DNA of 64,000 nucleotides from Bryum argenteum (taxonomy: Eukaryota; Streptophyta; Bryopsida; Bryales; Bryaceae), in the NCBI GenBank assembly GCA_037043015.1, contig CM073323.1, forward strand, positions 23,588,758 to 23,652,757, read 5' to 3'. The translations under genes were made by a program, and so were the position numbers. The notes beneath the pieces are model-generated. The model was not told the DNA's origin, made no database searches, and saw only the letters and a list, made by a program, of their open reading frames with translations. Shown piece after piece: positions 6,518 to 58,065 of this stretch (position 1 is the stretch's first letter; the number at the start of each line of letters is the position of its first letter).

Positions 6518-9500
6518 CTATTTGCGTTTCTTGTTGTTACCCTGCACATCCTCCAAGCCTGGTGAAGTACCCCAGCCCCTCCTACCAGGAGAAGGACTAC
6601 CCTTGTTGATTTTCTTCTGGTCTTTCCTTGCCTGCCGCTCCCGCTGATCCAGCTCCTGATTTTCTCTCTCCACTAGACGTATAAGAGTGTCACACCTCCT
6701 GGCCAGTTCTGATGGTGTCCGAGACTTCACGAACCAATCGAAGCGGAACACCGGAGATGCATGTACCGCAGCCTTGAGTTCTTCCCAATTTCCATAACCC
6801 AACCTATGTACTGAGCAGAGTAGGAACCGATCACACTCCTCGCTGTAAAGCTTCCCCTTGTTCTGACCGTACTGAATCTTGAGCTCCAACCACGGATTCC
6901 GGTACCTGTCCAACTTCTTACTCACTGACTTCATGATCTCATCCTTCCGAGAAATACGAGCCTCTCCCCTTTCGATATTCTTTATGATTCTCTCATGGTC
7001 GTTGAGAGTGTTGTAACGGCTCCAGAACACTTTAGAATACTTGTCCACTTCTTCCTCTGTTTTGCCATCGACCTCACTAGCGATGCTTTTCAAGTCATCG
7101 CGTCCGTACTTCTCACATGCTCGCACAAATGCAACAAAATCACGTCGGGACCAGCTCTGGAAGCCCTCCGACAGCAGCTGCTCTTTCTCCTCCGCTTCCT
7201 TCTCTGTAAGACCCTCCTCTACATCCTCAATGACTCTCACATCCTCGCCAGTATTTGCTGCTTTGGCCTGCAGAAGCCCCTTCACTTCTTTCTCGAAAAT
7301 CTCCGTAAGACGTTGTGTGTTGAAAAACTGGAAGTCGTGGAGTTGGGGCATACGAGGAATGCGGGGCTCTCTGGGTTTAGGCACTGGTCCAGCTCGCATC
7401 GCCTGCTTAAAGTAATCAGACTCTGAGTAATTCCGCTTCCGTTCACGTTTTGGCGGTTCTATCCAGTTGTCCGCAATGATCTTCTTGAACTCGTTCTTAC
7501 CGTCTTCCTTGTCATCCTGATCATCAAAGTCATACAGCCCCGCAGTATCGTCCATCTTGAACTTGATGGCGTCATCTGTGAACTTCTTCATCTTCTGATC
7601 AAGTTCCGCTGTTGCTTCTTCTCCTTTCGCAATGATACGGTCAATGTCTTCATCAGTAATCGTGCTGTCCCCAGAACTGAACACCTTCTCGGCTCCATAA
7701 CGAACCATCTGCAACAACTCATCTTTGTTGACTGCTTTCTGCTCCGCCAAACGCCCCTGTTGAATGACAAGTGCATCTAGGGCCAGTTTCTTGTATGCTC
7801 TCTCTATCACTTTCTCCTCGATGGTAAATTCCGTGCAAAACCTGAAAACTTGTACTTCTTTCTTCTGACCGATTCGATGTGCACGATCCTGAGCCTGAAG
7901 ATCCACCTGAGGATTCCAATCGCTGTCGTACAAAATGACTATATCCGCAGTTGCCAAATTGATTCCCAAACCTCCTGCCCGAGTAGAAAGCAGGAAACAA
8001 AACTTCTCACTATTCGGAGCATTGAACTGATCTATCGCGCTCTCACGATCATCACCACTGGTATTACCGTCAATCCGGCAGTATTGATAGGTCCGAAACT
8101 GGCAATAGTCCTCAAGAATGTCCAAAAGTCGTGTCATCTGAGAGAAAATGAGCACACGCGACTGTCGCTGCTTCAATTTCGGCAGCAGTTTGTCCAAGAG
8201 CACCATCTTCCCTGCAGTCTCAACCAGATGCTCCCCAGTTGTGTAGGGTGGACCCGGCTCAGCTCCCTCGAAAAGATACGGATGGTTACAGCACTTCCGA
8301 AGCTGCATGGCAATATTGAGAAGCCTCTTTCTCTCACCTCCTGTGTTGATAGCATCCATGTCTTTCTGCAGTAGAGCCCGATAGTATTGCTTCTGAAGAG
8401 TAGACATACCAACCTTCAGGATTGTTTCCTTCTTTGGAGGCAAACCCCTTTCGACATCGGATTTAAGACGCCGCAGTAAAAATGGCCTCAACACCTTGTG
8501 CAATTGCTGGACGACTTCATGTTGGTCGTTGTCACCAGAAATCTGAAACCACTCGTCAAACGTCTCCGCTGAGCTAAAAATCTCAGGAAGAAGAAAATTC
8601 AAAAGTGCCCAAAGCTCATGTAGGTTATTCTGCAGCGGAGTTCCGGTGATCAATAGCCGGTAATTCGTGCTGAACAGGCGCATGGTCTTCGCAAGAATGG
8701 AGGATTCATTCTTAATACGATGCGCCTCATCAATGATGATGTACCGCCAACTGAATTTCCGTAAAGCAGTCCTCTCCTTAATCGCCATCTCAAAACTCGT
8801 CACGCAAATGTCAAATTTCCCAGCCACGAGCAGATTGTCCCGCTGATACGTCCTCTCATCCTGGTTGCCATGAAACTTAAAGGCTCGCAGTACAGGACAA
8901 AATCTGCGAATTTCGTTCATCCAGTTTCCCAATGTCGACTTCGGTGCAACCACCATATGTGGCCCGGAAATGCCACAGTACTCGTGCAGATACGCGAGCA
9001 AGGAGATTGTCTGTAGCGTCTTGCCAAGTCCCATCTCATCAGCCAGAATGCCATTCACACCATTCTCGTACAAACGAATCAGCCAATTCAACCCGGCGAG
9101 CTGATACTCGCGCATTTTGCCATTGATGCAAGCCGGCTGCACAAGCAACCTCGTCCCGCGTGCAGCGCCAGCATCCTCTGCCTCATCTTCCTTGAGGTAC
9201 TCCTTGTCTTCTTCCTCCTCCGTCAGCTTACTGCCGTGCCGTCCCTTACTCCCTTTCTTCGCGTCCTTCGCCGCCTGCGGACCGTTCGCGAAATGCGCAA
9301 AAATTTCCGTCTGCTGCAACAGAAACTTCAACCGCCCCTTAGCTTTCGTGTTCATGTCGCTGTCTACCAGCTTGTTCTGCTCCGCCAAGAATGCGTCGAC
9401 CTCCGCTTTCTTCCGCTTTTTCAAGTCGTGCAACCGCTGCCGCTCCCTCTTCGCAATGTCTTTCTTCGACCCGCCGTCCGCTTCATCGTCTTCGTCGTCG

Positions 9501-9655
9501 CTGTCCTCGCACTCCGCCATAGTCACATCTTCGTCGCCTACCTCCGCGGCAGCTTCCTCTATGGCCGCTATCTCCTCCGGGTCCTCTTCCTCGCCGGCCA
9601 TGGGCACATCCTCCTCCTCCTGTTTGGCCGCGGCTCCTCTCCTTCCACCCGCCAT
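6518..9655 (-). CDS. ISWI-type chromatin-remodelling ATPase (CHR11/CHR17 class), no coding introns
   Basis: Nuclear SNF2-family motor that slides and spaces nucleosomes using ATP. The ATG at 9655 (MAGGRRGAAAKQEEEDVPM) gives 1045 residues, close to the roughly 1060 of Arabidopsis CHR11; the open frame reaches 9760 only from a GTG. Order: an acidic N-terminus (residues 12-60); a basic AutoN-like stretch (65-115); the SNF2 DEXD lobe with DEMGLGKT (206-213), DEAH (309-312) and TGTPLQNN; the helicase C lobe with FSQMTRLLDILEDY, STRAGGLGINLATAD and QAQDRAHRIGQ; NegC; HAND; SANT (WSRRDFVAFVRACEKYGRDD); SLIDE (YGNWEELKAA...RFDWFVKSRTP); and a basic tail ending NNKKRK. All catalytic motifs are intact. 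Alignment by eye to the Arabidopsis protein shows no intron-sized gap. Plant ISWI genes normally have many introns, so this looks like a retained processed copy or an intron-loss allele. Upstream DNA (9656-10130) is GC-rich. Confidence 0.97.
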   Translation of the reverse strand: MAGGRRGAAAKQEEEDVPMAGEEEDPEEIAAIEEAAAEVGDEDVTMAECEDSDDEDDEADGGSKKDIAKRERQRLHDLKKRKKAEVDAFLAEQNKLVDSDMNTKAKGRLKFLLQQTEIFAHFANGPQAAKDAKKGSKGRHGSKLTEEEEDKEYLKEDEAEDAGAARGTRLLVQPACINGKMREYQLAGLNWLIRLYENGVNGILADEMGLGKTLQTISLLAYLHEYCGISGPHMVVAPKSTLGNWMNEIRRFCPVLRAFKFHGNQDERTYQRDNLLVAGKFDICVTSFEMAIKERTALRKFSWRYIIIDEAHRIKNESSILAKTMRLFSTNYRLLITGTPLQNNLHELWALLNFLLPEIFSSAETFDEWFQISGDNDQHEVVQQLHKVLRPFLLRRLKSDVERGLPPKKETILKVGMSTLQKQYYRALLQKDMDAINTGGERKRLLNIAMQLRKCCNHPYLFEGAEPGPPYTTGEHLVETAGKMVLLDKLLPKLKQRQSRVLIFSQMTRLLDILEDYCQFRTYQYCRIDGNTSGDDRESAIDQFNAPNSEKFCFLLSTRAGGLGINLATADIVILYDSDWNPQVDLQAQDRAHRIGQKKEVQVFRFCTEFTIEEKVIERAYKKLALDALVIQQGRLAEQKAVNKDELLQMVRYGAEKVFSSGDSTITDEDIDRIIAKGEEATAELDQKMKKFTDDAIKFKMDDTAGLYDFDDQDDKEDGKNEFKKIIADNWIEPPKRERKRNYSESDYFKQAMRAGPVPKPREPRIPRMPQLHDFQFFNTQRLTEIFEKEVKGLLQAKAANTGEDVRVIEDVEEGLTEKEAEEKEQLLSEGFQSWSRRDFVAFVRACEKYGRDDLKSIASEVDGKTEEEVDKYSKVFWSRYNTLNDHERIIKNIERGEARISRKDEIMKSVSKKLDRYRNPWLELKIQYGQNKGKLYSEECDRFLLCSVHRLGYGNWEELKAAVHASPVFRFDWFVKSRTPSELARRCDTLIRLVERENQELDQRERQARKDQKKINKGSPSPGRRGWGTSPGLEDVQGNNKKRK

Positions 9656-10556
9656 AGCAGACCACTCCCTCAACAAGCCAACAGAGCTCTTCTCTTCAAA
9701 CCCTAGCAATAGCAAAAGCGCACAAAATCGAGCCGGGAAAATGCAAATGCGCGAGCTCACGAGCCGATGCTCCCGAGAACATCAGCGGGCGCGCGACCGA
9801 TCGGGAGAGGGTTCTCTCTCGATTTGATCAACACAAAGTCATCAGGCGAAATGGAAAGGGTTCAGGGGAGCTTGGAGCCCTAACGATCCTCGTCCAACGG
9901 GAAGTGGACGAGAGGCGTCTTTCGTTGACGATAAAGTCGCTCCCGCGCTTCCGAGTGGCGGGAGTTCCGAGAGATGGGGGTTGGGGGAGCGGGAATTAGG
10001 AATAAGGCGGGGGCGGGGTCGACGTTGCTCTCGGAAGTTTGAAATCAGGGCCATGAAACCGAAATGCACGCCTCCTGGCCGTTGCCAATCAATTTTGCTC
10101 TTGATGAATTTCAAGGGTTCACCCATCCGTAATTAACCGGCCTCAACATTTGCCTGACGTGGAAACATCCGATTGGTGTTCGACAGACACATTACAGCCC
10201 GTAATGTCTAGTGTGCGGATGAAAGTTTGTAATATGGAGCTTTGTGTATGAAAACCTCTCGTCCGGTGAATTACGCCCGGTAATGTGAGCCTCTCGCAGC
10301 GCCGGATCATACTGTCGCAGCGCTCACGCGCTGCTCCATTACTCTCCGTAACGCTGCTCGAGGCCCCCATTACCTAGTCCGTAAACACCCGCCGCACAAA
10401 TCCCCGTTCATTTGGTGGGCGAGTTATGGCCCTTAATCACTGGTTACGCGGTATCTCCCTCCCAGCCGGAGGTGACAGGAAATTCATCTACGGAACCATT
10501 TCTCATTCAATTTCTGAATGATTTCTTGTTAATTTCTTGTTAGGCGGCGTTTCCAT
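9656..10556. promoter_or_regulatory. ISWI 5' leader and promoter region
   Basis: GC-rich DNA directly 5' of the minus-strand ISWI gene, consistent with a leader containing CCCTCTCCCGATCGG-type pyrimidine tracts. Between 10190 and 10390 the phrases CCGTAATG, CCGGTAATG and CCGTAAC recur several times on either strand. This is a possible motif cluster or transposon relic. No protein-coding evidence. Confidence 0.4.
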
Positions 10557-15700: not shown

Positions 15701-16789
15701 TAACATTTCACTTCAAATTCACGAAAGCAATTGTAATTGTTCCTTAATGGAACCAATTGGACACGCTTAGTGGAACCAATTGATCAACAAACCTATAACA
15801 CTTTATGCGGCCATGATTACACAAGAATAGCTTTTGTTGTTTCAAAAGTACTTGGCCATTAATGCTACTTTCTTACAAAAATTGGAATAGGGTGAAAGCA
15901 AACTTACGGCCATCAAATAGTTAGTACTTGAAAAGCACAAAACATCACTCATGAGATACTTGGAAACTTTAGAATGTAAAAAAATACTATTTACATATAT
16001 CTCCCTATATTTTTGGAGAAAAAGAAAAATTGGTCATCAAATCTTACCAAGTCCCTTATCATAAACTTCAAATTTATTTAGTGGTTTACCATTTTGAACC
16101 TCCTAACCGACCATTGAAGATATTATTTGTCACCAATTCAAATACTAACATACTAGGTCCACCCTAGTGTGCTTTGACAATTGACATCTCAACCAATGTA
16201 ATAATGTATTAATTAATGTGTACAATTCCCTCTTGACAATGTAAGAATTTTCCTCTCAAGTGGGGCACATTTTCAACCAATGAATTAACTTTAAAAATTT
16301 GTTATGCACTCATAAATGAAGGTGGAGTGCAATCACAATAGAATTCACAAAATTGTCAAAACAAATGTACATATTTATTGGAGAAAGAATAGTAAGAGAC
16401 TACAAACACTTCATACACTATTCAAAATTTAGTCTTTCCATCTATTTGTTTCATCTCCATCAATGTTCATTCTAGCATGCGAATTCGAAATAAGCACACA
16501 AAGCTGAAATACCAAGTCATACATGATAATGCTTTGCATCACTTCCTCTTGTGTTGTGGTCCAAATGAGACTAACAATCTTCGCCAATTTATTTATAGTC
16601 ATACTCCACTTTCTAACCACTTCAAAATTTTCTCACGTTCTAGAGCAATTTACAAACAAGTCAAGCTTAGAGAACCAATATATGGATATCAAATAGTAAT
16701 CACACCAAATTCGATAGTTGAGAGTTTTTCATCATTAGAAGAATCCTAGAAACAAATCCAAGCACAACTTTAATTGACAATAAAAATGT

Positions 16790-18560
16790 GTATGCATTAT
16801 AGATTGTAAGATTTGAAAATTTAAGTTTTCTTTCAAAATGTACAAACCATGAGGATTTCAGTTGAATTGACAAGCACTCCATGAGTGACACTAAAATTTC
16901 TTGTGAGTATGACATTTATTTCAATGCAATACTCCAGCTGAGTGTTTTGCATGTGTATGTTTTTTTCTATTTATGTCTTTACACACAACAAACATTCCAG
17001 TCATCTTCATACAATGTTTAGCAACAATGAGTTCAAAACATGAAACTATTATTTAAAACATGGTTAAGAAAAACTGACCATTATGACTTTAGGCACTAAA
17101 GACAATTACATGAATAAAGAAAGGAATTGGGACAGTAGAGTTCTCCGTAAAGAAGCTGCTTGTTTAAGGGACTATTTTTTGAGAAATCCCTTTGTACCAA
17201 GAAATGGAGTGTAAATGTAAAGACAAGAAATTTTGAGCTCTAGAAATGTGCAATTAAACTAAAGTAAGCATGACAACCACAGTACCACACCAATGGATTT
17301 TCTGTATTGGGAGCTTTAAAAGTAGGTAGAGTAAAAGACATGAAGTAAAAGAAAATAATATCCCATAGTTACTATTATTATTGCTTCAAGTACTAATGAA
17401 GTCCAAGAAAAACCGAAATTAAGTAAATGATTTGTAATTAATAACATCTTATACTACTAACTCTAACTAAGAATAGAATATATAAATAAGAATAGAAAGT
17501 AAAACATTTTAAATCCCGTAAATATTCAATGAAGTCAAATATATAATCATTTTTCATTTGAGGGTTATGCTAGCTAGGTCTGTGAAGTCTAGCTCACATT
17601 CTCTCCCGCTCGCTCTTGTTTGCTTTTTGTTTGCTTTTTGCTTGCTTTTTGCCACGAACGCCTTCTCAAGTTGTGATTCCAAGGTCAAGGTGTCCCTTAA
17701 GCTTCTCCGCCTTTGTTGATCTCCTTTCGGGTAGCTGCCAAGGTACAACTACACCGTCTGTGGTGCAACATGGATCATGATCAGGGGCCGGTCATCCCAC
17801 CTTCTGCTCGTGCGATTGGACCATACAGGGCACTGGGGCCCTTCGAAGAATCGTCGCTTGAGTTAGACCGTCTTCTACACCAGCACAATGCCTCGTGGCG
17901 TATGTGTCACGAAAAAAGATCTGAATACAGATGGATCATTGACATGCTATCCACTGATTCTCAATCTTACTATGCTTATGGCCCATTCGACTTCAAGCAC
18001 CATGAAACCTTTGAGATTCGAGAGTGGGTCACAGCTATTTCAGTGCCAGAGATTGGTCAGTTTGTGGGAACCGGTGGACATGGAATTATATGCCTTGACA
18101 GAAGTATCAGCAACGACGCCTTTTGGGTTGTTTGTATGCCCGACGATAGCCTCCGAGCTCCTGCGGATCCTCGTACTCTCACTATCAGGCCTGACATTGC
18201 AACCAGTCCAGTCAATGGTTGTGAACCTGGACAAGCTCATGACGAATGCATGTCCGCGGAGGTGGTGTCGGCCAAAGGAGGGGGGGATTCCTCCTCTAGC
18301 AGGGGAAGGTGACCGAAGGTCCCGGACGGATGGCTGTACACACCCGGAGAACGTCGATACAACCGGCGGCGATGGTGCCGAGGATATGATTCGGGGTTTG
18401 ATCGGAGGTTCTGCTGAAGGAGTGGCCGAAGGAAAACCGATTATTGCTCAGCTTGATGCATGTAAGCAATGATTCCAGAATGGTGGGTATGAGCAAGGAT
18501 TTGAGAACATCGTAGATGGACAGGGTCAGGGCCAGCCGACAGTTACAGAATTGTAGCACG
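16790..18560 (+). repeat. Segmental tandem duplication, unit 1
   Basis: Unit 1 matches 18930-20760 over non-coding upstream DNA (for example TCATCTTCATACAATGT, GACAATTACATGAATAA and AAAGGAATTGGGACA) and over the unknown gene. Divergence is greater upstream than in the coding part. The unit also carries a TTTGCTTTTTG repeat (17615-17651) expanded relative to unit 2. Confidence 0.85.
17770..18312 (+). pseudogene. Unknown protein family, copy 1, C-terminally frameshifted
   Basis: ATG at 17770 (MDHDQGPVIPPSARAIGPYR) gives 180 residues. The first about 165 are highly similar to the downstream copy, including GPYRALGPF, WRMC, RWIIDMLSTDS, YAYGPFDFKHHETFEI and VGTGGHGIICLDRSIS. After an SSSSRGR tail the frame stops at 18312. 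The related sequence (HPENVDTTGG) continues in the +1 frame to a stop near 18475, so relative to copy 2 there is one frameshift and loss of most of the C-terminal half. It could still make a short protein holding only the conserved N-terminal domain. I do not recognise the family: no enzyme motif, signal peptide or membrane segment is apparent. Confidence 0.6.
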
Positions 18561-18929
18561 TCAGACCTCTAAAGCTAAAATGACATTATGATGACACACC
18601 TCAACTTTCTGAGCTGTAGTTCAAAAACCATGTTATACTAGAGGTGATGTTAGGGAAAATCGGTGACAATATATGTAAAGGAGTGATATTATAAAACAAA
18701 TTGTGATTTCACAGAATTCGATGGAATCTATTCAAAGCTTAGTTACCTTTTAGTTCACTCAAGGATTTGCGTGAGAGTTGGATTGATTTAACCCCAAAAT
18801 GTCATATTTGTCAAGTCGGGACTTTTGCAAGTCTTCTTTTAGTTGAGAATTGCGGCAAGCACAAAGAAGTCAGGGCAAAGGTAAAAGACAAAGACAAAAG
18901 GCAAAGCACAACAAAGTGCACAAAGTAGC

Positions 18930-20760
18930 ATTATAAGTCCCAAAAATATCACTTTGTATCTATAGTAGCAAATATGGCCTTCCAAGCACTCTATTATACT
19001 AAATTGTTTCATAAATATGACATTTAAATTCTCTAAAATACTTGAGCTCCAACTTTTGCACAAATGTGTTGCTTGTTTATTTTAACTTAACGTGCTTGTG
19101 CACAGTACACATTCGAGTCATCTTCATACAATGTATAGCAATATTTAGCTCAGAACATGAATTATTCACCAACAAAAAAAGTTACCAACCATGGTTCGTA
19201 AAAACATGACCAAAATGACTCTAGGCATTAAGACAATTACATGAATAAGGAAAGGAATTGGGACACTATATCGATCAAATAGTGTTTTCTCACTAGTAAA
19301 TGATCGAGAAGTTACATCGCATCGATCTGCATGGTATCGGCAGTCGGGAAGATCAGACTCCATGATACCGGCAGTGGGGAAGCATGCATCGGTGGTGGGG
19401 AAAATCCATCTCCAATAAATTGCCGGCCGGCTCTGCGAAGTCTCACATTTGTCACATTCTCTCTCTCGCTTGCTTTTGCTTGCTTTTTGATAAGAACGTC
19501 TTTTCAAGTTGTCGTTCTCAAGGTCAACTGAAGGTGTGCGTCAATCATTCTAGCTTTTCAACCTTTATCGGGTAGCTGCCAAGCTACAACATCAGCGTTT
19601 GTGGTGCAACATGGATCATGATCAGGGGCCGGTTATCCCAACTTCTCCTCGTGCGATTGGACCATACAGGGCACTGGGACCCTTTGTAGAATCGTCGCTC
19701 GAGTTAGTCCGTCTTCTGCACCAGCAAAACGCCGACTGGCGTATGTGTTACGAACATAGATTTAAAAACAGATGGATCATTGACATGCTATCCACTGATT
19801 CTCATTCTTACTATTCTCAATCTTTCTATGCTTATGGCCCATTCGACTTCAAGCACCATGAAACCTTTGAGATTCAAGCGTGGGTCACAGCCATTTCAGT
19901 GCCAGAGATTGGTCAGATTGTGGGAACCGGTGGACATGGAATTATCTGCCTTGACAGAAGTATCAGCGACGACGCCTTTTGGGTTGTTTGCATGCCCGAC
20001 GATAGCCACCGAGCTCCTGCGGATCCTTTTACTCTCACTAGTACTCTCACTATCAGGCCTGACATTGCAACCAGTCCAGTCTATGGTTGTGGATTTGGAC
20101 AAGCTCATGACGATTCCACGTCCGTGGAGGTGGTGTCGGCCGAAGTAGGCCGGGATCCTTCAGCCTCTAGGGGGAAAAGGTACCGGACGAATGACTACAC
20201 ACAGCCGGAGAACGTCGACACAACGGGAGGCTGGATTGGAATACTGGACTTCTTTTTGAGCTCAATCGAAGATTCTGCCGTAGGAGCATCCAACGAGAAT
20301 ACAACTCTTGAAGGAGATCAAATTCCCGGTCCTCACTATGGCAGTGGTGTATCTGAGCAAGGTTCTCAGAACGGACAGGGTGAGCAAGCTAGGAAAGAAT
20401 CGTCGAGGAAGAGAGCACGTCAGACGCTTGGCCTCACCGCCGAAGACATTGCAACAGTTCCAATCAACGGTTATGAATCTCGACAAGCTCCTACACACGT
20501 TGACAGATACACGTCCATGCTCATGCTCGAGGGCTCGGAAGAAGAAAGCTTGGAAATGGCACGGTCCCGCACAGTTAACTTCGCACACCCAAGGAATCAG
20601 GCCGTGATCATACTGGAGGACTCGGATGAAGAAGGCTCTGAGATGGAAAGCTCCCAGACGGATGACAATATACAGCCATGGATTGTCGGCACAATCGGAG
20701 GAAATGGCGCAATTGGTGAATTTCAGAGCATGCTTTTGAGTGCAGTCGACTGAGAAGCAT
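18930..20760 (+). repeat. Segmental tandem duplication, unit 2
   Basis: Second unit of the duplication, in direct orientation. It contains the intact gene copy and matching upstream non-coding DNA (about 19095-19600). The two units are about 2.1 kb apart start to start. Confidence 0.85.
19611..20753 (+). CDS. Unknown protein with basic cluster and SUMO-interaction-like motifs (intact copy)
   Basis: Single-exon ORF of 380 residues from ATG 19611 (MDHDQGPVIPTSPRAIGPYR) to the TGA at 20753. The N-terminal domain (about 1-165) is shared with the upstream copy and keeps aromatic and His/Cys-rich motifs. The C-terminal half is acidic and low-complexity. It is built from repeated modules: IATSPVYG and IATVPING, then LEGSEEESLEM and LEDSDEEGSEM, then TQPENVDTTGG and IQPWIVGTIGG. 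A basic cluster (RKESSRKRAR, about residue 260) could be a nuclear localisation signal. AVIILEDSDEE (about 331-341) fits the SUMO-interaction motif pattern of a hydrophobic core followed by acids; SMLMLEGSEEES is a weaker second one. Two short in-frame duplications (adding YYSQS-like and TLTS residues) distinguish it from copy 1. Function unknown; a nuclear SUMO-reader role is inference only. Confidence 0.75.
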   Translation: MDHDQGPVIPTSPRAIGPYRALGPFVESSLELVRLLHQQNADWRMCYEHRFKNRWIIDMLSTDSHSYYSQSFYAYGPFDFKHHETFEIQAWVTAISVPEIGQIVGTGGHGIICLDRSISDDAFWVVCMPDDSHRAPADPFTLTSTLTIRPDIATSPVYGCGFGQAHDDSTSVEVVSAEVGRDPSASRGKRYRTNDYTQPENVDTTGGWIGILDFFLSSIEDSAVGASNENTTLEGDQIPGPHYGSGVSEQGSQNGQGEQARKESSRKRARQTLGLTAEDIATVPINGYESRQAPTHVDRYTSMLMLEGSEEESLEMARSRTVNFAHPRNQAVIILEDSDEEGSEMESSQTDDNIQPWIVGTIGGNGAIGEFQSMLLSAVD

Positions 20761-22680
20761 GTATTTCGCAATATATGGAATATTCAAATTATCAATTCAA
20801 TGATAGTTGAGATTGAGTTGAGCTAAACTGTATTTTGAGGAAATCAATGAATATTCTCAGTACAACGAATTACGTGTTGAGACGATAGTCTCGATCTGCA
20901 AACTGGAACTGGTGGATCGGAGCAAGGTTCGTCGACAGAAGTCAAGAACGTCCAAGATCAGCTGGCCGTTTGGATCCTGATAGGCAACTCAACTGCTCAT
21001 ATATCAATAGGAATATGAACTTACAACATGAAAGTAAACCTCAAAACAAAAGAAGTTAGGGCTATCAACTTACAATTTTAGTGTAGACGGCTTGCCTTCA
21101 TGCATAGCAAAAAACACATTGAATGCATACCATGCATCATCTTCACTTGCAAACTCTCCTGTTGATTTACTCCCTCATATTAGACTCATGTTAGCCTATT
21201 TCTATATGCTTAGTGAACTCCTTTTGAAATCTCATTTGAGAAGTTGTAACCAAATGGTTGATTTTTTTCATATTGGAATATACAACTCATAGTACAATTT
21301 GCCGAGGTGGAATGCTATTAAGCTTTTCACAACTATTCTTTCTTGACGAATGAACCATCCCCACAATGAATGGTCTCTCAATATAAGGTACAGACACCCA
21401 TACCAGTTAGCACCCCCATGACCGGTAAGTAGGTATTCTCACTGCCGCGCATGGCTGAACCAAAAAGAGATAATTTTATCCGTCAAGAGTGCGGTGCATG
21501 ATCTCATAGTGGAGGGGAGGTAGCCGAAACTGGTGCACTCAAATACGGAAATTGCTAATTACCAAATACGGAAATATGGCTATGGCTAGAATTGGGGGCT
21601 TCTAAATTAGCTTTGTGGTCCAGACTTGTCCGTTTAAGGTTCTCTCCATGCTCCATTTGCATGATGTCTGTTATGGTTTCTCAGCAATGGATTTTCCTTC
21701 ACTGCTTTTATTCCTATCCAAAATGGGTGAAGCTATATGGCGGTTGTGTGTCTGGGCTACTTTTTGACTCAAAAATTTGTAGTAATTTCAGATTTCCTTG
21801 AAAAAAAAATTAAAAATTTCCATTCTTCATGAACCTTATTTCCCTACAAAGGAAAAATAACTGCTCCTTCATAATCACAGCCACTCCATGCTCAAATGCT
21901 TAAGTTCTCCGTTATAGGTGCCTGTACCTTAGTCCTTTACTTTCACTACCTCCCCAAGCAGCCTTGGGAACACTTAGCAACTCCCACCTCGGCAAATCCT
22001 CGTGCCAAAACTCACATTCTGATAGCAGGACCATGGAAGCACCAAAATTCAACGACTCTTGAATCAATGCTCTCTGGCAGCGATATGGCAGAGTCCATTG
22101 ACAAGCTCCTCAGCGGACATCGGTCGGTGGTGTGGGAAGCACAAATAAGAAGAAGAACTTCATACCTATTTTGAAATCGATGTTAATAGAACGTTTGTTT
22201 GACCTATTCGATTACAGCCGAATTTCATAACACCAATAGAGATATGAAACCTACTGTAGATATCGGTAAACAATTGGGGAGTTTCTTCGGGCGATTGTGG
22301 GAAACAGTACGTACCTGTCAAATGGTGACATTCACAAAAATATGCATCAAACAATGTGTGATGATAAGTCGAGCGCCATGAGTATTGATCATCTCCACTG
22401 CAAAAGTGTAAAACTTGTTGAGTCAGCCGATGATGTTTCTTCACCAGTTTTGCAGTTCTTCAGGTGCATGATCGATCAGCTACCGATTGATCGGCGTCCG
22501 GTAATCACTCATCGCTACTGTGCTTCATTGGCGTTTCTTACTCTATTACTACATCACAAGGTACAGATCGAAACTTCCACTTGATCAATCGCCAGCATCG
22601 TCCACACACTCATCACTGTAGTTGATCGACAAATGATTCTAGTCATCGGTGAGTCTACATATACTTCTTGCAATCGGCAG
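20761..22680. other. Intergenic, with a short foldback relative at about 20765-20880
   Basis: 20765-20880 resembles the outer arms of the foldback element at 24568 (AATATTCAAATTAT, GTTGAG...GAGCTAAA, ATTACGTGTT). The rest, including about 20880-21000, which vaguely echoes the C-terminal modules of the unknown gene (GAGCAAGGTTC), shows no supported gene. Confidence 0.5.
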
Positions 22681-24567: not shown

Positions 24568-24970
24568 ATTTACGTATTTTTTAATAATGAGAATATTCAA
24601 ATTATTAAGTAAATGACGGTTGAGCTTGAGTCAAGCTAAATGTACACATATATTGAGTACTTTACTGAAACTAGACAAAATAACCAATTGTCGACAATTC
24701 TAGAATGATCATAACTTACTCAAATTTTGTTCAAATTGAACACATGAGGTGTTTTTTGACATCTACTCTTTCAATAAATGTCCAAAAACACCTCATATGA
24801 TGAATTTGGATAAATTTTGAGTAAGATATGACGATTTGAAAATGGCAAAGATTGGTTGTTTTGTTCATTTCTAGTGAAGTACCCAATATGTGGGTACATT
24901 TAGCTCGACTCAAGCTAAGTTTTATTTTCCCAAAATCATTGAATTTTCCTACTATAACAAAATACGTGTT
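24568..24970. repeat. Foldback element with arms of about 195 bp
   Basis: Left arm 24568-24763 and right arm 24778-24970 are imperfect reverse complements over nearly their whole length. Matching pairs: TACGTATTTT with AAAATACGT, TTGAGTCAAGCTAAATGTAC with GTACATTTAGCTCGACTCAA, and ACACATGAGGTGTTTTTTG with CAAAAACACCTCATATG. The central spacer is about 14 bp. Non-coding foldback MITE; related short pieces lie at 20765 and 28060. Confidence 0.85.
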
Positions 24971-29780: not shown

Positions 29781-29784
29781 TTAA

Positions 29785-30116
29785 CCCTTAAACGCGTGAG
29801 GTGACCCGAGGGGTCATATTCCAACAGAATCTCCTCTGTAGCTTTCAATGTACTCAACTTTTCACTTATATTTTCATGTCAAACTGGTTACCTTCTTCTG
29901 ATGCATTCAAAAAGTGAAATTTTAGAATTCAAAATCACAATTTGTATGAGTGATTTTGTGCTTTGAAAGGATTGTGGTAGGTAGGTTGGGGTTGTACAAA
30001 ACCTTGTAGGAGGTTGCAAGCTCATCATAGATATGTTCACTCATGATGCCCAAGTCCAGAAGATGCTGTGATTCAATTTTGGGCTGCCCATTTCAGACCC
30101 CATGGGCGTTTAAGGG
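29785..30116 (+). mobile_element. TTAA MITE family, copy A (332 bp)
   Basis: Starts CCCTTAAACGCG and ends GGGCGTTTAAGGG, with TTAA at the left (shared with the preceding element) and TTAC at the right. Interior phrases (GGTAGGTTGGGG, AACCTTGTAGGAGGTTGCAA and ATGATGCCCAAGTCC) are shared with copies B-E. Confidence 0.85.
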
Positions 30117-31388
30117 TTACCAAAGCAGGTAGCTAGTGGCATATCTTCATGTCAAAAACAAAGGCTTACATGCAAAGCCATGTTACTTTTTCATGTCCAT
30201 TTATCAGCTCAAAAACAAAGCGGCATGTTTTCATGTCCAACTAAACAACGGTTGCATGCGAGCCATGTTTTTAATGTCCATTTATCACCTCATAAACAGA
30301 GGCTGCATGCAAAGCCATCTTTTTATCGAGATGCTCAATAAGTGTGGACCATACCATTTGTCCTACAATTTCTATCACATGGTGCCTGCAAAGCCAGAAG
30401 CTCACATTAAAGCCAATAACGCCAACGATGAGAATTCAATCATCGAGCTCTCAAACAAGGATATGTGAGCACGATCGTGGCAGCTTAGTAGAATGACGGA
30501 TTTAAGTGTCCATATATTTTGTGGGTGTCAGTTATTATTGCTCTCGGGTGGAGTAGCCGATGATCAAAACAATCCAAATCGGTCAGAATCCTCCGGCCCA
30601 ATGATCCGAGGGATCCGACAATTAGTTGTAAATGAAAAGGTCTTTACGTGCACATGTCGAAACAAACGGAAAATGGTCAATATTTTGGTACCCGTTTAAA
30701 ATTGGATACATAATTGATACCTACACAATTATTTTACCAAACAATCTTCGAAGAAGAGGATAATAGGCGAATGATCATGGCTTGTTAAGTATAAAGGTCA
30801 TGTGTTGCTCGATCTCGCGTAGCTTTTGTTCATTGGAAAGCAATAATTGATTGTCCCGTGCATGGCATTGATGTGGGAAAACTTTCCGTTGATCATGAGT
30901 GAATGCGAGAACGTTGGAAAAGAAGTCATGCATTTGAATATTGTCATCCATACTCAAGTATTGTAAAGAGTCATCGTAGTGGTGGTGCAAAACATCGGGA
31001 TTCTTCAATCATAAGAATAAGAAGAAGAACTCTAATCCTATTTAAGGGTCGGGCGTGAATAGAGTGTCTGTTCGTTTTACCTATCCTTGAATGCATGCAT
31101 AGAGGTCATATAATCATCACATCATGTAAGAGCATTGTCCTAACTCATTGTCTCTAAAGTCGTGGGTATTTCTAGGACTTTGCTTCTCCGCGGTCTAGTT
31201 ATAGTTTTGAGGGTTACTTGTTGTGCCCATAACCAAGTTTGTTTTGACATTGGGATTGCGGGAAAGGTTGTGTGCATGCAAAGACACAAATTACAAGATG
31301 GAGAACAATGGCTCTTCCTTAGGACGTGCAGGTGGAGAAACTACATTAAAAAACCATATGTGTTGAACATGTTGAGGTGCTCTTAAGG
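30117..31388. other. Intergenic with short repeats of a CATGTCCATTTATCAGCTC phrase
   Basis: A phrase GCCATGT...TTCATGTCCATTTATC recurs at 29141, 30178 and 30262 with about 60-80 bp spacing. The TTAA elements above split this array. No supported gene. Confidence 0.5.
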
Positions 31389-31400
31389 TAATCTAAGCAC

Positions 31401-31755
31401 AAGGCACCACAAGCCTTGGCTTGGTGGTTACGGCTTAGGCTCCCAATGAGGAGGTCGTGGGTTCTATTCCCCATGCTGGCGTGGTGTCACCACTATAGTC
31501 CACCCAACTATTGTGGGAGGTCCTTGGACCTTGTTGTATGGGTACCTCAAAGCCCTTTGGGGGATACTATGTCAAGTATCTTCAAGGCGTTAGTAACTAG
31601 GCTAGAAACTAGCGTAGTTATAGTGTCCACCCTCGAGAGGGGGAAGTAGTATTGTTCTAATTTCCCCTTGTCCGGTGGCCATTGGGATATTAGCATTACG
31701 AACGGACACTTCATTCACGTCGGCCCCTTAGAAAGGACCGGAGTTTCTATCTATC
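31401..31755 (+). mobile_element. tRNA-derived SINE, full length (355 bp)
   Basis: Flanked by a perfect 12-bp duplication TAATCTAAGCAC (31389-31400 and 31756-31767). The head has a pol III A box-like TGGCTTGGTGGT (about 31418) and a B box-like GGGTTCTATTCC (about 31459), about 30 bp apart. The tail is a short TCTA repeat. Three other copies occur in the window. Confidence 0.95.
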
Positions 31756-31805
31756 TAATCTAAGCACTACCGAGAACCAAAGCACTAGGCCCCAGTTCCT
31801 CCATG

Positions 31806-37364: not shown

Positions 37365-37655
37365 ATTCCCCATGCCGGCGTGGTGCTCACCACTATAGTC
37401 CACCCAACTATTGTGGGGGGTCTTTGGACCTTGTTGTATGGGTACCTCAAAGGCCTTTGGGGGGATACTATGTCAAGTATTTTCAAGGCATTAGTAACTA
37501 GGCTAGAAATTAGCGTAGTTATAGTGTCCACCCTTGAGAGGGGGAAGTAGTATTGTTCCAATTTCCCCTTGTCCGGTGGCCATGGGGATATTAGCATTAC
37601 GAACGGACACTTCATTCACGCCGGCCCCTTAGAAAGGGACTGGAGTTTCTATCTA
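37365..37655 (+). mobile_element. SINE, 5'-truncated (291 bp)
   Basis: Same sequence as the 31401 SINE but lacking the head with the A and B boxes. Bounded by a perfect 12-bp duplication TAATTCTTGAGG (37353-37364 and 37656-37667). Truncation with intact target-site duplications is the expected product of incomplete target-primed reverse transcription. Confidence 0.95.
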
Positions 37656-38005
37656 TAATTCTTGAGGCTATTTGCTTAATTTTCGAGGCTATCCAATTTC
37701 TTCGTAGATATTGAGTGAGAGAGCGATGTCAGAGACGGAGACGTCCGAAGACCCAAGTGTGAGTCATTTTCCTCCAGAAATCCATCAATCATGGATTGAT
37801 GGATTGCACACAATGTGAGAGTGACGTCCAAAATGACACCCATCAGTCCATCAGCTGCTCAATCAGTTCCAGTTGTTTATGCCTTTTTCTCATTAATGCA
37901 ATCCATCATGCAGCGAGAGCTGTCGTTTCTAGAACCCACACACACGCTCCTCTCTCTCCGACCGACCGGTTCATGCACGAGTTGATTTAATACATCAACC
38001 TTTAA

Positions 38006-38367
38006 CCCTTAAACGCCCGAGCAAGCCCGAGGGGCTTGATTCCAACAGAATCTTCCCTGTAGCTCTCATTGTACTCAACGTTTCACTTATATTTTGATGT
38101 CAAACTGGTCACCTTCTTCTGATGCATTCAAAAAGTGAATTTTCACAATTCAAATCACAATTTGTATGAATGATTTTGTGGTTTGAAAGGATTGTGGTAG
38201 GTAGGTTGGGGTGGTACATAACCTTGTAGGAGGTTGCAAGCTCATCATTGATTGGTCCATTCATGATGCCCAAGTTCAAAAAGTGCACTATTCATGATGC
38301 CCAAGTCCAAAAGATGCTGTGATCCAATTTTGGGCTGCCCGTTTTAGACCCCAAGGGCGTTTAAGGG
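38006..38367 (+). mobile_element. TTAA MITE family, copy B (362 bp)
   Basis: CCCTTAAACGCCC...GGGCGTTTAAGGG with TTAA on both sides (38002-38005, 38368-38371). Contains a local duplication of a CATGATGCCCAAGT phrase that copy A lacks. Confidence 0.9.
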
Positions 38368-38371
38368 TTAA

Positions 38372-38706
38372 CCGCCCTTGGGGTCTGAAACGGGCAGCCC
38401 AAAATTGGATCACACCATCTTTTGGAATTGGGCATCATGAATAGTGCACTTTTTGAACTTGGGCAGTACGAATGAACCAATCAACGATGAGCTTGCAGCC
38501 TCCTACAATGTTATGTACCTACCACAATCCTTTCAAAGCACAAAATCACTCGTACAAGTTGTGATTTGAATTGTAAAATTTCACCTTTTGAATGCATCAT
38601 ATGAAGGTGAGCAGTTTGACATCAAGATGTAATTGAAATTTTGAGTATAGTGAAAGCTACAGATGTTGGAGAAAAAACCCGTCGGGTTCCCTTGTGCGTT
38701 TAAGGG
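38372..38706 (-). mobile_element. TTAA MITE family, copy C, inverted and abutting copy B
   Basis: Reverse-orientation relative directly after the TTAA at 38368-38371; its own inner terminal repeat is reduced to CCGCCC. The outer end is GTGCGTTTAAGGG then TTAT. With copy B it makes a roughly 700-bp inverted repeat. Confidence 0.85.
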
Positions 38707-38810
38707 TTATTTGGATTAAAGAAATAAAGATAAAACTAAAATATAGAAAATAATATAAAAAAATCACACTCTCACAACCGAAGATTACCATAGTACAATT
38801 GCAAATTTAA

Positions 38811-39170
38811 ACCTTGAAGGTCCTTGGGGTCTAAAAGGGGCAGCCCAAGATTGGATCTCAACATCTTTTGGACTTGGGCATCATGAATTGTGCACTTTTA
38901 AAACTTAGGCATCATGAATGGACACATCAATGATGAGCTTGCAACCTTCTACAAGTTTATGTACAACCCAACCTAGCTACCACAATCCTTTCAAAGCACA
39001 AAATCAATCATACAAATTGTGATTTGAATCGTAAAATTTCACTTTTTGAATGCATCATAAGAAGGTGACCAGTTTGACATCAAGATATAAGTGAAGAGTT
39101 GAGTACAATGAGAGCTACAAGGCATATTTTGTTGGAAAATGCCCATCGGGCTTGCTTGAGTCTTTAAGAG
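38811..39170 (-). mobile_element. TTAA MITE family, copy D
   Basis: Reverse orientation. TTAA at 38807-38810 and 39171-39174; the terminal repeats are decayed (ACCTTGAAGG, CTTTAAGAG). The interior keeps GGTCACCTTCTTATGATGCA (minus strand) and the CCCAAGTCC module. Confidence 0.8.
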
Positions 39171-39227
39171 TTAACTCTTAGGGTCTGTTTACACTATAAT
39201 GGAGAGGTCTGCCAGTCAAGAAATTAA

Positions 39228-39589
39228 CCCTTAAACGTCAGGCTATATAGATTTGGGCAGCCTTGTATTGGATCACAACATCTTTTGGACTTGGGCATCA
39301 TGAATAGTGCACTTTTAAAACTTGGGCATCATGAATGATCCAATCAACGATGAGCTTGCAACCTCCTACAAGGTTATGTACAACCCCAACCTACCTACCA
39401 CATTCCTTTCAAAGCACAAAATCACTCATACAAATTGTGAATTGAATTGTAAAATTTCACTTTTTGAATGCATCAGAAGAAGGTGACGAGTTTGACACCA
39501 AAATATAAGTGAAAAGTTGAGTACATCGAGAGCTACACATGAGATTCTATTGGAATATGACTCCTCGGGTCACCTTCGGCATTCAAGGG
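39228..39589 (-). mobile_element. TTAA MITE family, copy E (362 bp)
   Basis: CCCTTAAACGTC at the left and GCATTCAAGGG at the right, TTAA on both sides (39224-39227, 39590-39593). Same length as copy B. Confidence 0.88.
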
Positions 39590-39825
39590 TTAAGGAGAAA
39601 TCTTGAATGTGATTGGTTGAAAGTGGGACTCTGATTGGGTAAAGCTGACATTCTTGACCAACTTGAGGCTTTTTCCAATGTAATGTAAATGAGGCCTTCT
39701 ACTACAAATGGTACTAAAATTCGTTTTTTGTACACCCAAAAAGGACCACACTATCTCCCAAAATCTCACTTGTGCTCCTGAAATGTGGACCGCATTTCAC
39801 GCCGGAAAATGCAAAGAAGAGGGTC

Positions 39826-51247: not shown

Positions 51248-51559
51248 TTTGGTCGTGGGTTCTATTCCCCATGCCGGTGTGGTGCTCACCACTATAGTCC
51301 ACCCAACTATTGTGGGGTCCTTGTACCTTGTTGTATGGGTACCTCAAAGCCCTTTGGGGGGATACTATGTCAAGTATCTTCAAGGCACTAGTAACTAGGC
51401 TAGAAACTAGCATAGTTATAGTGTCCACCCTCGAGAGGGGGAAGTAGTATTGTTCCAATTTCCCCTTGTCCGGTGGCCATCGGGATATTAGCATTACGAA
51501 CGGACACTTCATTCACGTTGGCCCCCTTAGAAAGGGACCGGAGTTTCTATCTATCTATC
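51248..51559 (+). mobile_element. SINE, 5'-truncated (312 bp)
   Basis: Same family as 31401, starting just before the B box (GGTCGTGGGTTCTATTCCCC) and ending in (CTAT)n. Perfect 13-bp duplication TGACCGAATATGA at 51235-51247 and 51560-51572. Confidence 0.95.
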
Positions 51560-57314: not shown

Positions 57315-58065
57315 GAGCATGCCCAGCTTTGCCCTCTAAGTCGGGCGGCTAGGCTGCGTCGCAAGCTTGCAAGCGGCGCTCGGGCAGGCGTCTATACCCC
57401 ACCCACGCCGGAAGGCATGCCATAGATAGATAGAAACTTCGATCCTTTCTAAGGGGCCGGCGTGAATGAAGTGTCCGTTCGTAATGCTAATATCCCGATG
57501 GCCACCGAACAAGGGGAAATTAGAACAATGCTACTTCCCCCTCTCGAGGGTGGACACTATTACTACGCTAGTTTCTAGCCTAGTTACTAGTGCATTGAAG
57601 ATACTTGACATAGTATCCCCCAAAGGGCTTTGAGGTACCCATACAACAAGGTCCAAGGACCTCCTACAATAGTTGGGTGGACTATAGTGGTGAGCACCAC
57701 GCCGGCATGGGGAATAGAACCCACGACCTCCTCATTGGGGGCCTAAGCCTTAACCACCAAGCCAAGGCTTGTGGTGCAAGGCATGCCACATAAAAAAGGC
57801 CGCTCACCAATCACCTTTCTGACAAGTGATTATAATAAAAAATATTTCTTACCAATAAAATTGTTGTTGCATGTCACTCTCCCATTAGTTAATGAGAACG
57901 CTAAGATGTAAATGGAGGTAAGAGATAACTTGGAGTTTTGGCGTCTTAGAATTTAGGAAACCTCAACCCTCTTGACCGGATTTCAGGGATAGTGTGTGGG
58001 CTCGGGTTCCTCACACTTCAAACAAGGCTCCATTCTCCAGCCCACACCGCGAGCTGGGCATGCTC
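57315..58065 (-). mobile_element. Tourist-like MITE copy 2, opposite orientation, holding a nested SINE
   Basis: Same element as copy 1 in reverse, sharing the TTA at 57312-57314 and ending before the TTA at 58066-58068. Removing the SINE and one target duplication (366 bp) leaves 385 bp, close to the 373 bp of copy 1. The pair forms a long inverted repeat. Confidence 0.92.
57423..57777 (-). mobile_element. SINE, full length (355 bp), nested in a MITE
   Basis: Exactly the same length as the 31401 copy, reverse orientation. Perfect 11-bp duplication AAGGCATGCCA at 57412-57422 and 57778-57788. Contains the complete A and B box head. Confidence 0.97.

Follow-up and report, generated by a model that had tools for sequence, protein, structure and literature searches.

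The tandem pair and its tails

In a 64,000-nucleotide stretch of Bryum argenteum DNA (assembly GCA_037043015.1, contig CM073323.1; G000:C3:23588758-23652757), here called the window, two neighbouring open reading frames (ORFs) on the plus strand encode related proteins whose core, about 165 residues long, resembles no family in the libraries searched. Copy 1 (17770-18312, +; positions are those of the window unless a contig is named) is an ORF of 180 amino acids (aa) that, by alignment to copy 2, has kept its core domain intact and lost its tail; copy 2 (19611-20753, +) is a single uninterrupted ORF of 380 aa. The start context is identical in both, GTGGTGCAACATGGATCATGATCAG standing at each start. 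At the DNA level the two units (17631-18370 and 19470-20231) are 83.4% identical over 776 columns, far above chance, and the predicted core proteins (residues 1-166 of copy 2 and 1-162 of copy 1) are 87% identical. The gene-centred duplicated parts are spaced 1.84 kb apart, and the likeness extends upstream: the 5' flank of copy 1 (17631-17769, +), co-duplicated with the gene, matches its counterpart at 19470-19610 at 75.6% over 131 aligned bases, and an outer block of the duplicated unit (16871-17137, +) matches 18983-19268 at 70.5% in blastn and at 74.4% over 262 aligned bases in a second alignment. These alignments show the two predicted genes to be products of a tandem duplication that took in the whole gene and its 5' flank, and the paralogue pair proposed in the first-pass annotation is present as described.

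Copy 2 falls into two parts of different character. Residues 1-165 (19611-20105, +) form the core domain, which is common to four other aligned family members, while residues 166-380 (20106-20750, +) form an acidic, low-complexity tail with a net charge of -21, as against -8 for residues 1-165. The tail is homologous to that of a 750-aa paralogue described below: compared in their coding frames, the two tails reach a local score of 79, and none of 200 shuffles attained it (maximum 66). Within the tail lie a basic cluster, RKESSRKRAR (20391-20420, +), labelled by eye as resembling a nuclear localization signal (NLS), and two adjacent 29-residue repeats (residues 299-327 and 328-356; 20505-20678, +) that align with a score of 48, a value reached by none of 200 shuffles (maximum 31). 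The second repeat carries AVIILEDSDEE and the first the weaker MLMLEGSEEE. The open frame of copy 2 runs to 399 codons, whereas the longest seen in 500 surrogates drawn from a Markov model of this stretch was 229. The acidic tail with repeated modules and the NLS-like cluster had both been noted in the first-pass annotation, and both hold.

The same annotation had reported a C-terminal loss in copy 1, and the point of loss can now be placed at a frame-shifting indel near 18308-18314, with a stop codon at 18310-18312. The two copies differ by a net 7 nt in length at the stop, beyond which the +1 frame of copy 1 is again homologous to the copy 2 tail. This decayed tail, traced by tblastn and DNA alignment over 18278-18529 (+), has a frame stop at 18472 and aligns with the copy 2 tail at a local protein score of 80, a value reached in none of 200 shuffles (maximum 44). 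Identity over the former tail region at 18371-18560 is 48.6% (185 aligned bases). Judged from these alignments, the copy 1 tail is one lost by frameshift and eroded since. In contrast to the 7-nt shift in the tail, the two indels between the copy 1 and copy 2 cores, of 15 and 12 nt, are both in frame. Copy 1 is not necessarily dead, because its 180-aa product is about as long as a core-only paralogue of 183 aa found nearby. Of 19 changes scored, two are derived in copy 1, three in copy 2 and two are shared, with 12 unresolved, so that copy 1 shows no excess of derived changes.

The wider family

Own-genome searches with four members covered 258.8 Mb on 25 contigs and, together with a tblastn of the regions retrieved, found seven core-bearing places on three contigs, namely copies 1 and 2 and five more; this is a lower bound, as just the top-ranking candidates of the genome search are scored. 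The genome also carries rbcL, on a contig of 114,600 bases, which marks it as that of a plant. Less than 90 kb from copy 2 lie a 750-aa gene with an acidic repeat tail of 590 residues (C3:23670053-23667801, -) and a core-only gene of 183 aa (C3:23696779-23697330, +) that is followed by a fragment. A doubtful copy without a clean ATG is found on C4, and a stop-interrupted pseudogene on C9. The N-terminal core common to at least five loci measures about 140-165 residues, and an alignment of five members has 19 invariant columns, including GPF, RW.I and FWV.C. The 750-aa protein has a tail of net charge -75, some modules of which recur in that of copy 2. The protein also holds a basic cluster, SKRKAKSAVTNSSEPKAKKPREP, and both tailed proteins thus carry one. 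Its C-terminus, a basic stretch followed by CVYI, is presumably comparable to a CaaX prenylation box. The 183-aa gene ends in SPIVLLDD, the adjacent fragment in EVVLLDE and the C4 copy in EVKLLN, which are too few sequences to call a conserved motif.

A tail is absent from the 183-aa paralogue, 215 aa long in copy 2 and 590 aa long in the 750-aa paralogue, and tail length is therefore the family's most variable feature. The earlier description of a duplicated, fast-changing gene is borne out, and the family varies in copy number as well as in tail length. The core itself could contain a two-fold repeat (GPF...C...YRWIID and GPF...C...FWVICM), for which hhalign returned an E-value of 0.013 and a probability of 3.4. 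Shuffled sequences did as well in 2 of 500 trials for one member and in 38-156 of 500 for the other four, so that an internal duplication of the core is suggestive but not established.

Codon usage was scored as log-odds trained on four open frames from neighbouring genes, with stops ignored; counting the stops did not alter the outcome. In the annotated frame, z-scores were 3.1 for the copy 2 core, 4.8 for its tail, 2.6 for the copy 1 core, 2.8 for the 183-aa gene, 2.0 for the C4 copy and 8.5 for the 750-aa tail. The annotated frame was the best of six in six of seven stretches, with the runner-up close behind in the copy 1 and copy 2 cores; only in the core of the 750-aa gene (z 2.5) did another frame, a reverse one, score higher. 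Coding-like codon use and the homology between tails support the prediction that these frames are coding.

The copy 1 and copy 2 cores are more alike than the sequence around them. Identity is 92.9% over core codons 1-140 but much lower in the 5' flank (75.6%) and in the outer block (74.4%), and synonymous divergence in the core (about 11 of 115 sites) is lower than divergence in the 5' flank (32 of 131, p 0.002) and in the outer block (67 of 262, p 0.0003). This pattern suggests either that gene conversion has acted on the core or that the flank alignments are of uneven quality; the cores may thus have been homogenised between the copies by gene conversion.

Searches of Pfam, NCBIfam, PADLOC, PHROGs and PDB sequences with the core gave no credible match, bearing out, at the sensitivity available, the claim that the core lies outside known families. 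In Pfam, where matches were considered up to an E-value of 10 and the HMMER filters remove most above about 0.1, the best score for copies 1 and 2 was 13.3 bits against a gathering cut-off of 30, and the whole 750-aa protein reached 12.3 against 27. Across the five cores the best Pfam E-value was 0.029, and in the one member for which cut-offs were shown no match came near them. For part of the family-library searches, including PHROGs, the 750-aa protein was entered as residues 1-719. A core profile matched no PDB sequence. Two scans each of viral contigs and of GTDB species contigs, using near-identical short peptide patterns that distant relatives could escape, found no relatives; plasmids, queried with the 183-aa gene only, gave a best E-value of 1, and phages, queried with copy 2 residues 1-180 only, no match. 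Literature searches listed no title or abstract opening on such a family.

Known kinds of system offer comparisons. The core GPF stretch followed by a helix is like SPOR-type repeats, with which it shares GPF and a Glu/Leu-rich stretch after it; three members have two occurrences of GPF in their core. It differs from them in that the SPOR profile is absent from the Pfam matches of five members at E-values up to 10, and in the weak support for the internal two-fold repeat. Taxon-restricted (orphan) plant families with tandem copies are similar in their lack of library relatives, tandem duplication, rapid tail turnover and pseudogenes; the difference is one of scope, since orphan here means absent from the libraries searched, with this plant's own genome as the only plant genome covered.

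Interpretation and competing explanations

On the evidence of alignment, copy number and codon use, the predicted genes constitute a real, small, fast-evolving plant gene family, an orphan in the sense of lacking relatives in the libraries searched. We tentatively favour, as the most likely reading, a family in which the core is a module for binding and an acidic, probably nuclear arm is optional. The core would be compact, and the tail would serve as an adaptor arm that is disordered and probably nuclear. Short linear motifs in this arm, one of them perhaps SUMO-binding in copy 2, could change fast and leave the core undisturbed. Core-only products could compete with tailed ones. In favour of this reading are the architecture of the family, the homology of the copy 2 and 750-aa tails in their coding frames, the codon use, the in-frame indels of the cores as against the 7-nt shift in the copy 1 tail, the basic clusters of both tailed proteins and a long-term omega (the ratio of nonsynonymous to synonymous divergence) of 0.45-0.70 in six of ten pairs.

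Several observations weigh against this interpretation. Nuclear location, disorder and binding are read from composition only, and structure predictions from two-row alignments headed by copy 2 or by copy 1 gave a mean predicted local distance difference test score (pLDDT) of 29.3 and 30.2, respectively, with no usable fold. Purifying selection between the copies, set beforehand as a test, was not demonstrated: omega was 0.80 over 171 codons (bootstrap 0.40-1.92), an interval that spans 1, and 0.52 (0.23-1.37) over the first 130 codons. Substitutions between copies 1 and 2 did not avoid conserved columns, affecting 3 of the 27 columns that are conserved among the other three members and 13 of 102 elsewhere (p 1.0), or 10 of 74 and 8 of 73 under a looser rule of conservation (p 0.80). 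The possible gene conversion weakens this pairwise test of selection, which therefore has less power. In comparisons with the older paralogues, the omega of 0.45-0.70 was obtained for the six of ten pairs that were converted, with a synonymous divergence (dS) of 1.1-1.9; these long-term values are high and are drawn from nearly saturated pairs.

The strongest competing explanation, a possible one that we nevertheless find less probable, is that the family is decaying, its remnants being mostly pseudogenes and the copy 2 ORF one not yet broken. The frameshift in copy 1, the stops in the C9 copy, the lack of a clean ATG on C4 and the fragment beside the 183-aa gene all fit decay, as do an omega between copies 1 and 2 not significantly below 1 and the transposon-like repeat that begins 2 bp past the copy 2 stop. 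Long ORFs with coding-like codon use are, however, kept in three members (380, 750 and 183 aa), the copy 2 frame outruns every Markov surrogate, the core indels are in frame, and copy 1 has accumulated no excess of derived changes. About as doubtful is the idea that the core is a divergent member of a known family, hidden from the libraries and from a shallow alignment. This explanation is compatible with the binding-module reading, so that their probabilities overlap; it gains from the small number of sequences (five, all divergent) and the low confidence of the two-row fold predictions, and loses from the lack of any Pfam match near a curated cut-off (among matches with E-values up to 10 that were listed with their cut-off) and of any PDB sequence match for the profile. 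A transposon or virus gene, domesticated or carried as a passenger, is the least probable of the explanations considered. Fast evolution, copies on three contigs and a transposase gene and a repeat of transposon type nearby would suit it, but the copy number is low (seven places, as a lower bound), no relatives were found in viral contigs or phages, or credibly in PHROGs, no long inverted repeats enclose the units, and none of the seven short inverted pairs (14-20 nt) within 16700-21200 lies at the unit ends, in a scan of limited sensitivity that also misses the imperfect ends of the adjacent repeat.

A further proposal concerns copy 2 in particular and is a special case of the binding-module reading, with which its probability overlaps: that it is a regulatory or conflict-related protein which recruits SUMOylated partners through AVIILEDSDEE (20601-20633, +). 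The first-pass annotation had called this sequence a textbook-looking SUMO-interaction motif (SIM). In PMC3443746, the SIM consensus is a hydrophobic core with V, I or L at three of four positions, flanked by acidic residues. VIIL-EDSDEE (copy 2 residues 332-341) meets that consensus and resembles the known SIMs described there in its place within an acidic, low-complexity tail. Four open frames nearby (1045, 392, 718 and 469 residues) contain no strict match, and the ends of the 183-aa paralogue and its adjacent fragment, SPIVLLDD and EVVLLDE, are loosely similar, all of which favours SUMO binding. On the other hand, the strict pattern was matched by 4.2% of 2000 shuffles of the tail and 4.9% of those of the whole protein, and a looser one by 11-17%. 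Unlike known SIMs, moreover, the putative copy 2 motif is not conserved among its paralogues: none of the four other members tested (copy 1 and the C4, 750-aa and 183-aa genes) has a strict match, and the loose pattern, absent from copy 1 and the C4 copy, appears in the 750-aa and 183-aa proteins without the same context. AVIILEDSDEE is confined to a local repeat seen in copy 2 only. The motif is therefore present as claimed and fits the consensus, but its role in SUMO binding is a plausible guess rather than a finding, and we consider the proposal as a whole unlikely. The weaker second SIM of the first-pass annotation, MLMLEGSEEE, is there in the sequence, but it matches neither the strict nor the loose pattern.

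The binding-module reading can be extended to a fuller scenario, more speculative still, to which we attach only a small chance. An undescribed plant domain would gain and shed an acidic arm, disordered and made up of repeated modules; gene conversion would keep the tandem cores alike as the arms diverge; one cluster would thereby yield both tailed adaptors and core-only competitors; and the copy 2 arm would have gained a SUMO-binding site. If the genes are expressed and functional, they represent a new domain family and a natural experiment, in which, within 90 kb, one core occurs tailless, with a medium tail and with a very long one, so that what a fast-evolving tail does could be tested directly in a plant. 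If they are not expressed, the locus records ordinary gene birth and decay.

Neighbouring elements

The repeat adjoining copy 2 (20756-20878, +) is 123 bp long and resembles a miniature inverted-repeat transposable element (MITE), with imperfect inverted ends (21 of 31 positions) and a GAGA target-site duplication. It recurs at no fewer than 38 further sites in the genome, counted among the 40 that were scored out of 231 candidates, and 12 of the 38 were aligned; a related stretch is also found at window 24574-24644. A continuation of the copy 2 tail beyond this element was considered and was not convincing in six comparisons (three frames against two tails): the frame in which copy 2 would read on was the best of the three and scored 41 against the copy 2 tail, a value reached by 7 of 300 shuffles, and 38 against the 750-aa tail, reached by 23 of 300. 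Between copy 2 and the 750-aa gene, a 462-residue open frame (G000:C3:23655066-23656451, -) has a DDE_Tnp_4 transposase domain.

Elsewhere in the window, 6518-9760 (-) is an uninterrupted ISWI-type ORF with SNF2, HAND and SLIDE domains. The 3' third of this ORF and its 3' flank are present in a 97%-identical copy just left of the window (G000:C3:23583322-23585076). If this ISWI gene has no introns, it may be a retrocopy. Four copies of a repeat of about 290-355 bp, 93-96% identical, are present (31404-31757, 37365-37656, 51251-51557 and 57423-57777), and repeats of about 315-370 bp, in both orientations, cluster at 38002-39593 and 29781-30119. Over the whole genome, the telomere-like (TTTAGGG)4 was matched 997 times forward and 224 times in reverse, overlaps counted, against none for the reversed control; among the matches listed, all lie on C1 and are internal.

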